Positions 13,033 through 34,720 of a stretch of 34,720 nucleotides of DNA are shown in pieces (positions within the stretch are counted from its first letter, which is position 1; the number at the start of each line of letters is the position of its first letter). Made by a program: the position numbers and the translations under genes. Under the pieces are notes generated by a model, which was given only the letters and a program-made list of their open reading frames with translations, was not told where the DNA came from and ran no database searches. The DNA lies in contig VFJS01000035.1 in NCBI GenBank assembly GCA_009885955.1, positions 1 to 34,720 of the forward strand, in the 5' to 3' direction. The DNA is from Spirochaetia bacterium. GTDB taxonomy: Bacteria > Spirochaetota > UBA4802 > UBA5550.

Positions 13033-13188
13033 TGCTCACGGATTTTCACGGATGAATATTAATCTAAATGCCTATTATACGTCGGGGGTGATTTATCATT
13101 GAATACTGGATACAGACCTCAAGTTACAGGGAAAGTTTATGAAAAGAATATTAAAAAACCTGTGAACATCCGTGTAAATCCGTGAGCA
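13033..13188. repeat. Foldback element with CACGGAT-type arms
   Basis: The arms at 13033-13054 and 13167-13188 are 22-base inverted repeats with one mismatch (cores CTCACGGATTTTCACGG and CCGTGTAAATCCGTGAG). The 112 bases between them are AT-rich with no gene. CACGGAT-type foldback sequences are common dispersed intergenic repeats in many bacteria. This is the main content of the 12949-13253 spacer between cheR and the flagellar operon. Confidence 0.7.
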
Positions 13189-32640: not shown

Positions 32641-33996
32641 ATGACAAAAGAAATACCCATAGTATCCATTGTAGGAAGGCAGAATGTGGGGAAGTCCACC
32701 CTCTTCAATTCTATCATTAAAAAAAGGAAGGCCATTGTGGACCCCCATCCCGGGCTCACCAGGGATGTGATTCTTCACACCATAACATATAAGTCAGTGG
32801 TTTTCAGCATAACCGATACGCCCGGACTGGACATATCGCGCACTTCGGAACTCTCCGCCCCCATCATTGACAACGCCATGGAACATCTCAGGAGGTCCTC
32901 GGTGATTGTCCTCCTCCTTGAAAATCCGGCTCCGGCAACCTTTGACCTCACTCTGGCAGACATGGTGAGGAAGCTTTCAAAACCGGTAATCGTGGCAGTG
33001 AACAAGACCGACGACAGCGGCCAGATGGAGAACATGATTAACTTCTACGAGATGGGTTTCAGCGACATCATCCCGGTATCGGCACTGAACAGGTTTAACC
33101 TGGAACTCCTGCTTGACAGGATCATTGACAGCCTGCCCAGTAAAAAAACATCCATAACTGAGCCCGACCTGCGCCTCTCGATTGTAGGCAGGCCGAATTC
33201 TGGAAAGTCGACGCTCCTCAACTCATTTCTGGGGTTCAACAGGTCAGTGGTCTCTGAAATCCCCGGGACTACCCGGGACAGCATAGACGACAGGTTCAAT
33301 TTCCAGGAGAAAAGAATTGAGGTGATTGACACCGCGGGCATCAGGAAAAAAAGCAAAATCACCGGGGACATTGAGTATTACTCCTTTACGCGCACCGTTG
33401 AAGCCATAGAAAAGAGCGATGTGGTGATACACCTCATCGATGCCGAGGTCGGCCTTACGGACACGGACAAGAAGATATCAGACGAGATCATGAAGGCGAA
33501 AAAACCCGTTATCATAGCCATAAACAAATGGGACTCAATTGAAAAGGGGGACAAGACCTTTAACGAGTTGAAGGATAAGATGATCTTCAGTTTCTACAAG
33601 GCCGTGGATTTCCCCATTATCTCCATCTCTGCCAGGGACAAGCTGAGGATAAACAAGCTTCTCATCGCGGCCCTTGAAGTAAAGGAGAGGGCCCTTGGTA
33701 AAATTGAAACCCCCAGGCTGAACCAGGTAATCGCCAGACTGCTAAAACCGGGGAGGCTCCCGCAGATGGGCAGCAAGCTGAAGGTCTACTACGCAGTGCA
33801 GATTAAATCGATCCCGCCTGTTTTTAAATTCTTCGTGAACAACACGTCCTTTTTCCGGAAGGATGTTATGCGGTATTTTGAGAAGTCCCTGCAGAGTGAA
33901 CTGAACCTGGAGGGAATTCCGGTAACCATAGAGCTTGAAGGAAAAAAAAAGCAGGAAAGAAACAGGCCGGGAGGAAAAGGGAACAGGGTCAGATGA
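32641..33996 (+). CDS. der: Ribosome assembly GTPase Der (EngA)
   Basis: A 451-residue Der with two tandem GTPase domains and a C-terminal KH-like domain. Domain 1 carries GRQNVGKSTLF, DTPGLD and NKTD. Domain 2, from about residue 178, carries GRPNSGKSTLL, DTAGIRKKSKI and NKWD. The KH-like part ends with basic residues (KKKQERNRPGGKGNRVR). Der is needed for 50S subunit maturation. Its 3' end overlaps the recR end by 8 bases in convergent orientation. The ribosome binding site is weak. Confidence 0.96.
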   Translation: MTKEIPIVSIVGRQNVGKSTLFNSIIKKRKAIVDPHPGLTRDVILHTITYKSVVFSITDTPGLDISRTSELSAPIIDNAMEHLRRSSVIVLLLENPAPATFDLTLADMVRKLSKPVIVAVNKTDDSGQMENMINFYEMGFSDIIPVSALNRFNLELLLDRIIDSLPSKKTSITEPDLRLSIVGRPNSGKSTLLNSFLGFNRSVVSEIPGTTRDSIDDRFNFQEKRIEVIDTAGIRKKSKITGDIEYYSFTRTVEAIEKSDVVIHLIDAEVGLTDTDKKISDEIMKAKKPVIIAINKWDSIEKGDKTFNELKDKMIFSFYKAVDFPIISISARDKLRINKLLIAALEVKERALGKIETPRLNQVIARLLKPGRLPQMGSKLKVYYAVQIKSIPPVFKFFVNNTSFFRKDVMRYFEKSLQSELNLEGIPVTIELEGKKKQERNRPGGKGNRVR

Positions 33997-34588
33997 CAAC
34001 CCTCCCATCAATGGACTTTATGAGAGTGGCAGAATCGGTAAAATCCAGATCCGCGCCGGCCGGAAGGCCATGGGCAAGCCTGGATATCTTTATCCCTGTC
34101 CCCCGGAAGAGCCCTGAAATATAAAGCGTTGTAGCATCACCCTCGATGGATGAATTGAAGGCCAGTACTATCTCATGAACATCCATCCCCTTCACCCTCA
34201 TGAGCAGCGGGGCTATGGACAGGTCATCGGGCCCTATTCCGTCCAGCGGAGATATGACCCCCATGAGTACATGATAGAGGCCATTGAATCTTCCCGTCTT
34301 TTCAAGGGTCAGAATGTCCTTTGCCCCCTCGACAACGCAGAGGAGCCCCCGGTCCCTTGCGTCATTTGAGCATATGGAGCAGGTATCGCTGTCTGAGATG
34401 CCGCCGCATGTGCCGCACGCCCGTATATGCCTCTTCAGCTCAGTGATAGCGGCAGTGAGGCTGTTCACATCGTCCATGGGCATGGACAGTACATGAAATG
34501 CAAACCTGGACGCGCTCTTTGTCCCGATCCCCGGAAACTTTGCGAACTCTTTTATGAGCCCGTCAAGGTATTTTGATGAATTATTCAT
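33989..34588 (-). CDS. recR: Recombination mediator RecR
   Basis: A 199-residue RecR. Helix-hairpin-helix FPGIGTKSASRFAFHVL is near the start, then the zinc-finger cysteines in CGTCGGISDSDTCSIC, and a Toprim domain opening LLCVVEGAKDILTLE. It loads RecA with RecF/RecO at gaps. I start it at ATG 34588 (MNNSSKYLDGLIKEF), with AAGG just upstream. The longer frame to 34714 is translated group II intron sequence and should not be part of the protein. Confidence 0.95.
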   Translation of the reverse strand: MNNSSKYLDGLIKEFAKFPGIGTKSASRFAFHVLSMPMDDVNSLTAAITELKRHIRACGTCGGISDSDTCSICSNDARDRGLLCVVEGAKDILTLEKTGRFNGLYHVLMGVISPLDGIGPDDLSIAPLLMRVKGMDVHEIVLAFNSSIEGDATTLYISGLFRGTGIKISRLAHGLPAGADLDFTDSATLIKSIDGRVVI

Positions 34589-34616
34589 ACACCTTCTCAG
34601 TTTTATTTTTAGCTCA

Positions 34617-34720
34617 ATAGAGTAGACTCTGGTCGGATATCTACATCCGACCAGAAGCCCCTCATCAAACCGTACGTGCCCTATTAAGGCATACGGCTTA
34701 CCGACAGGATTCATCTCAAG
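34617..34720 (-). mobile_element. 3' end of a group II intron (domains V and VI), cut by the window edge
   Basis: On the minus strand, the segment AAGCCGTATGCC - TTAATAG - GGCACGTACGGTTT (about 34667-34699) matches domain V, with the AGC triad and the ACGTACGGTT return strand. GATGAGGGG follows, then an 11-bp perfect hairpin TCTGGTCGGAT/ATCCGACCAGA, as in domain VI, and a 3' end CTACTCTAT at 34617. The loop of domain V is not the usual GAAA. Exon sequence resumes at 34616, leading into the recR ribosome binding site. The rest of the intron, including any reverse transcriptase, would be outside the window. Confidence 0.75.

Follow-up and report, generated by a model that had tools for sequence, protein, structure and literature searches.

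The stretch of DNA analysed here (the window, 34,720 nt) corresponds to contig C41 in a draft genome that comprises 4.77 Mb in 117 contigs and is 98% complete. The contig breaks off inside a group II intron, the 3' end of which lies just upstream of recR and on the same strand. The features at this locus, together with one further element in the window, are as follows.

33989..34588, minus strand: recR (TIGR00615, 236.5 bits, plus Pfam RecR domains)
34589..34616, minus strand: 3' exon and recR leader, made up of TGAGC, the final bases of a MITE right arm (ATCCG^TGAGC), followed by CTGAGAAGG
34617..34720, minus strand: last 104 nt of a group II intron at its 3' end, running from the close of domain IV through domains V and VI, from Rfam, copy comparison and fold; the contig end falls inside the intron
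34617..34663, minus strand: domain VI hairpin and 3' end CTACTCTAT, from sequence and fold
34667..34699, minus strand: domain V hairpin with an AGC triad and the non-GNRA loop CCTTAATAGGG, from sequence, fold and copy comparison
13037..13184, no strand assigned: empty copy of the ATCCGTG element, with a minus-strand ORF on either side; its reverse arm spans 13037-13053 and its forward arms 13158-13184

The intron end matched RF00029 in Rfam over the full model (1-77) at window 34617-34701 (minus strand), with 41.3 bits against a gathering score of 40. The terminal 104 nt (34617-34720) folded at -45 kcal/mol, compared with -27.5 ± 3.1 for shuffled sequences (z = -5.7), and 0 of 200 shuffles folded as well. 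The predicted fold comprised two hairpins, that of domain V and a long one for domain VI, and the terminus CTACTCTAT occupied 34617-34625 (minus strand). These results bear out the original prediction of a group II intron end with domains V and VI on the recR strand. The A at 34623 is the candidate branch point, judging from its position 7 nt before the intron end. The intron end lies 28 bases from the recR start codon (ATG at 34588, minus strand); its placement just upstream of recR was thus correct, and the distance of 29 bases first given for it was not. The span that had been proposed, 34589-34720, covers the intron end plus this 28-base leader. Within the leader, GAGAAGG in CTGAGAAGG is Shine-Dalgarno-like and would be the recR ribosome-binding site, and CTGAGAAGG itself is possibly a degraded MITE right end. 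The recR frame is also open upstream through the intron 3' end, forming a 241-aa ORF (window 33989-34714, minus strand). This open frame is probably due to chance; unspliced RNA could yield an N-terminally extended RecR.

Across the draft genome, RF00029 gave 30 matches, 29 above the cut-off and one below it, which fell into several sequence families. A genome search with the 104-nt 3' end found it at 11 places with 100% identity and at three more with 92-97% identity over the full length. Ten of the 11 identical ends sit at contig ends, as is usual when an assembler meets identical repeats. The 5'-end query was located at 17 places, eight of them at 100% identity, and seven of those eight run into a contig end. 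The sole complete copy is 1911 bp long and lies on contig C17 (C17:10685-12595; L021:2186-4096). It begins GTGCGCC, in keeping with a 5' GUGYG end, and it contains domains I-IV and an RT/maturase. Its IEP has 492 aa (L021:2519-3997) and a TIGR04416 match of 383.7 bits; the Pfam matches of this protein were RVT_1 and GIIM only, with no endonuclease (HNH/En) domain among them. The 3' exon of the C17 copy (AGCC..) is off-pattern, and this copy may be a scaffolding join. Because 11 identical 3' ends occur together with a complete copy that has an RT/maturase, the sequences indicate a family that spread recently and is not a decaying relic.

The original prediction had also called the domain V loop atypical and suggested that it might mark a decaying copy. 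The loop (CCTTAATAGGG) is indeed atypical in not being GNRA. The same domain V is present in 13 of the 14 family copies in which the 104-nt end was located over its full length, the C60 copy being unmatched by the pattern used. Because identical copies share the same loop, it is a trait of the family rather than a product of decay.

We located the other side of the insertion on contig C35. The genome has a single YbaB match, which lies on C35 downstream of a DnaX-like ORF (named by reading its sequence), and C35 terminates in the 5' end of the intron, with the first 103 nt visible there. In 27 of the 28 relatives carrying recR, ybaB adjoins it; the gap is at most 33 bp in 25 of these 27, with 86 and 204 bp for the remaining pair of genomes, and it is 183 bp here without the intron. 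Because the sole ybaB is on C35 and ybaB and recR are adjacent in relatives, C35 and C41 very probably flank a single intron, in the order dnaX-ybaB-(element::intron)-recR, an order that rests on gene order and not on a spanning read. When joined, the C35 and C41 flanks restore ATCCGTGAATATCCGTGTGAATCCG^TGAGC, which is the MITE right arm. The intron lies in the recR leader and in sense, one of the two placements that had been proposed, with its 5' end after ybaB. As a separate observation, a palindrome-like, different sequence fills the 204-bp gap of one relative (G003, L137), and repeated invasions of the ybaB-recR gap may have taken place.

We considered whether the copy at recR is dead or truncated, a remnant of which the two ends alone are kept, an outcome that the original prediction had allowed for. 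Decayed or internally deleted copies of the family do exist (C60, C10, C99, C39 and C110), and the C60 copy measures only ~510 nt end to end and holds IEP fragments with stops. However, both visible ends at the recR locus, each of ~103 nt, match the full C17 copy at 100% identity, whereas the clearly decayed copies have 82-96% identity at the 5' end, and the contig breaks are those expected from identical full copies. The domains I-IV and RT that were to be looked for beyond the window edge were found in the identical-ended C17 copy, and at the recR locus itself the corresponding sequence is the 103 nt of 5' end on C35. Given the full copy on C17 and the matching 5' end on C35, a remnant is unlikely, and we infer a full-length intron at recR, of which the assembly holds the two ends and lacks the interior.

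The 183-bp spacer between ybaB and recR holds a dispersed element with ATCCGTG arms. The pattern ATCCGTGNNNATCCGTG, with up to two mismatches, had 242 genome matches compared with 3 for the reversed control, and we read 59 element clusters from the loci around the first 100 listed of these 242 matches. The usual plan of the element is an end GTAACTACTCAGC, then GCTCACGGATNNNCACGGAT.., a variable core, ATCCGTGNNNATCCGTGNNNATCCGTGAGC and an end GCTGAGTAGTTAC. Eight copies had both ends at no more than one mismatch to GTAACTACTCAGC, and seven of them (all except L109) had perfect 8-bp flanking duplications; there was no perfect 8-bp duplication among the listed end pairs with more mismatches. The IS66 transposase (PF03050) had three genome matches, the best of which, on C65, has these 13-base ends, GTAACTACTCAGC and GCTGAGTAGTTAC, on its two sides. 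IS66 elements produce 8-bp target duplications and begin with GTAA. Because the ends are common to the C65 IS66 transposase element and the copies have 8-bp duplications, we identify the dispersed element, on this sequence evidence, as an IS66-type MITE. At the recR locus the MITE has kept its arms, its ends are degraded, and no target duplication is visible.

The intron at recR interrupts the MITE right arm between ATCCG and TG, and most other copies occupy the same or similar GTG repeats. GTG starts 9-11 nt upstream of the intron in 14 of the 17 located 5' junctions, including 8 of 8 identical 5' copies; the exceptions (L056, L059 and L060) are diverged copies. The 3' exon begins with TG in 10 of the 11 identical 3' copies, C17 being the exception. 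By reading, eight of the 11 have the TGAGC-type MITE end, C3 has CTCTGTGG and C102 has TGAAC. Another type of repeat, CTCTGTGTCTCCG, which has a shorter period, hosts some of the copies. In an alignment of copies, a hairpin loop GTGAACACGCAGG (the EBS2 candidate) and GCCGGAT (the EBS1 candidate) each line up from copy to copy, the EBS1 columns having been picked by eye. The candidate EBS1, CGGAT, pairs 5/5 with IBS1 ATCCG, and in L049 an EBS1 of CGAAT stands beside a TTTCG exon with 4/5 pairs. The EBS2 candidate ACACG pairs with CGTGT; its fit is limited to the family of the window intron, and by eye there was none in two foreign relatives described below (L063 and L064). No terminator hairpins were seen when the 17 5' junctions and 14 3' junctions, mostly GTG repeats, were read by eye; the sites do not fit the terminator or attC targets of class C introns.

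Insertion after an intrinsic terminator was rejected because the 5' exons are repeat arms, not a hairpin and T-run. The original prediction had named a terminator as a possible neighbour of the insertion and had suggested looking for one at the 5' exon; the neighbour is instead the MITE arm.

We concluded with considerable confidence that a recently mobile intron, whose IEP has no recognised endonuclease domain, retrohomed into an IS66-type MITE already present between ybaB and recR, and that the insertion was guided by EBS1 and would be spliceable in sense. The MITE would first have inserted between ybaB and recR in a dnaX-ybaB-recR operon. The intron RNA would recognise the MITE arm ..CCGTGNNNATCCG^TGNNN.. 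via EBS1 (CGGAT/ATCCG) and probably EBS2 (ACACG/CGTGT), insert between ATCCG and TG, and be reverse transcribed by its own RT, presumably with replication-fork primers, as in other endonuclease-less introns. In its sense orientation the intron could be spliced from the ybaB-recR transcript, so that the MITE leader would remain together with the ribosome-binding site of recR, and the insertion would presumably be neutral for recR. That is, the truncated intron end can be explained as a three-layer nest of operon, MITE and intron.

An improbable alternative is that the intron regulates recR, such that splicing or its failure sets the level of RecR and the insertion has been kept by selection. 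The sense orientation and the position 28 nt from the ATG would suit such a role. However, the identical intron end occurs at ten other loci, and a same-strand ORF (ATG start, at least 100 aa) begins within 80 bp of the intron in six of the 11 identical copies, recR being the closest at 28 bp; a nearby same-strand ORF at six of 11 loci is as expected from a repeat-targeting parasite. In addition, the 3' exon supplies recR with a ribosome-binding-like site of its own, and none of the 27 relatives with adjoining ybaB and recR has room for an intron (gaps of 204 bp or less). The placement of the intron is probably not special to recR. The nearest ORFs were in sense with the intron in 8 of 11 cases downstream and 7 of 8 upstream; these are raw counts with no background comparison and were not used as evidence. 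A class C intron inserted behind a transcription terminator is very improbable: the IEP lacks a recognised En domain and its PDB matches include IIC maturases, but GTG-repeat arms make up the 5' exons, and a conserved site that pairs with EBS1 recurs at the 5' junctions.

Other introns of this genome were also noted. Two families (C5, C11, C43 and C45, at L001-L004; C6, C40 and C42, at L015-L017) share a second dispersed repeat, TTGAATAGGGTTGTANNAAATACTTTCTG, as the location of their 3' exons; this repeat had 24 genome matches compared with 0 for the control, and the two families lie ~20 nt apart within it. A further family (C8, C9, C10, C6, C7, C23, C66 and C92, at L005-L012) has one shared 3' end; its 3' exons resemble short hairpins with GCAGGATGC-like motifs, and these introns are perhaps hairpin-targeting. 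Lastly, L040:232-281 (C16) is a 50-bp palindrome in which the domain VI end of the window intron faces its own complement, and one flank of it resembles the 3' exon of the C17 copy.

Relatives of the intron in other lineages lie beside exons that may match their own EBS1. In a Prevotellaceae relative (L064, IEP 53% identical), CAAAG stands beside CTTTG (5/5) and the intron is located among CTTTGTG repeats; in a relative from Ignavibacteriae (L063, IEP 61%), CTAAA stands beside TTTGG (5/5 with one G-T); and in a Scalindua relative (L062, IEP 59%) the EBS1 pairing is 4/5. Several foreign pairings, of one intron's EBS1 with another's exon, also score 4, and the match of EBS1 to local repeats across lineages is suggestive, not proof. 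The Scalindua intron site is CTCTGTGGCGCCCG^TGG, and the sequence around it looks to be coding. Tandem YTTTGTG matches exceeded the control in the Prevotellaceae (38 vs. 1), Scalindua (13 vs. 0) and Bacteroidales L066 (7 vs. 0) genomes, and there was no such excess in two Ignavibacteriae genomes, L063 and L065 (3 vs. 3 and 4 vs. 6). More distant relatives (IEP 41-46%; L239-L242) were read as a control: the two with sites resolved at both ends, L239 and L240, lie outside GTG repeats, the former beside an IS110 transposase frame and the latter at GTAAGCG, close to an IS66 gene. Among 198 genomes of the phylum searched, own included, ATCYGTG tandems were found in 31, with one control match in total, and IEP relatives at E 1e-80 or better in four. 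We offer only tentatively, as something we doubt more than we believe, the broader idea that this intron lineage exploits intergenic inverted arrays of GTG heptamers across phyla (ATCCGTG, CTCTGTG, CTTTGTG), retuning EBS1 to the local repeat dialect when it moves between hosts and finding dozens of safe landing sites per genome. Should EBS1 prove to match the local repeats of further hosts, this would reveal how introns of this kind pass from one host to another.

Judged by titles and opening abstracts, we found no description in the literature of introns in these GTG repeats. The longer repeat motif strings had no match in open full text; motifs are rarely printed in that form, and the repeats may hence have been described. 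The literature matches listed first for the short motif, a small part of the total, looked unrelated, as judged by their titles.

Excerpts of earlier work describe homing sites, terminators and attC sites as target types of group II introns (PMC4424553), thermophilic introns inserted in insertion elements and other introns (PMC2882425), and a Thiomargarita genome rich in group II introns and in MITEs (PMC4853749). The nearest parallels, as far as the excerpts go, are RmInt1 and RmInt2 of Sinorhizobium meliloti (class D), which home to ISRm2011-2 and to inverted repeats of ISRm17, respectively (PMC5894124); they share with the window intron an IEP without En, many copies and a multi-copy insertion element as target. 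Unlike them, the window intron family targets a short, non-coding MITE of IS66 type, as well as similar GTG repeats, at no fewer than ten intergenic sites. TeI of Thermosynechococcus elongatus likewise has a high copy number, having proliferated through changed target specificity and insertion into other mobile elements, but its targets are other introns and an IS200-family element, with no MITE or tandem-repeat arms described in the excerpts (PMC2882425). An intron on the small E. coli plasmid pEC_RSHH22_2 (WP_115425395.1, L240; IEP 41% identical) has the 3' exon GTAAGCG.., with an IS66-like ISEc23 transposase gene just upstream; it may use an IS66-type element and be inserted at an IS66 end, although its exon sequence differs from that of the window intron and has no GTG-repeat arm. 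Intron homing into insertion elements is thus already known, and what is less usual here is a multi-copy GTG-repeat target borne by a MITE: a natural case of an intron that would use a dispersed, transposon-borne repeat for multi-copy homing and do genes little harm.
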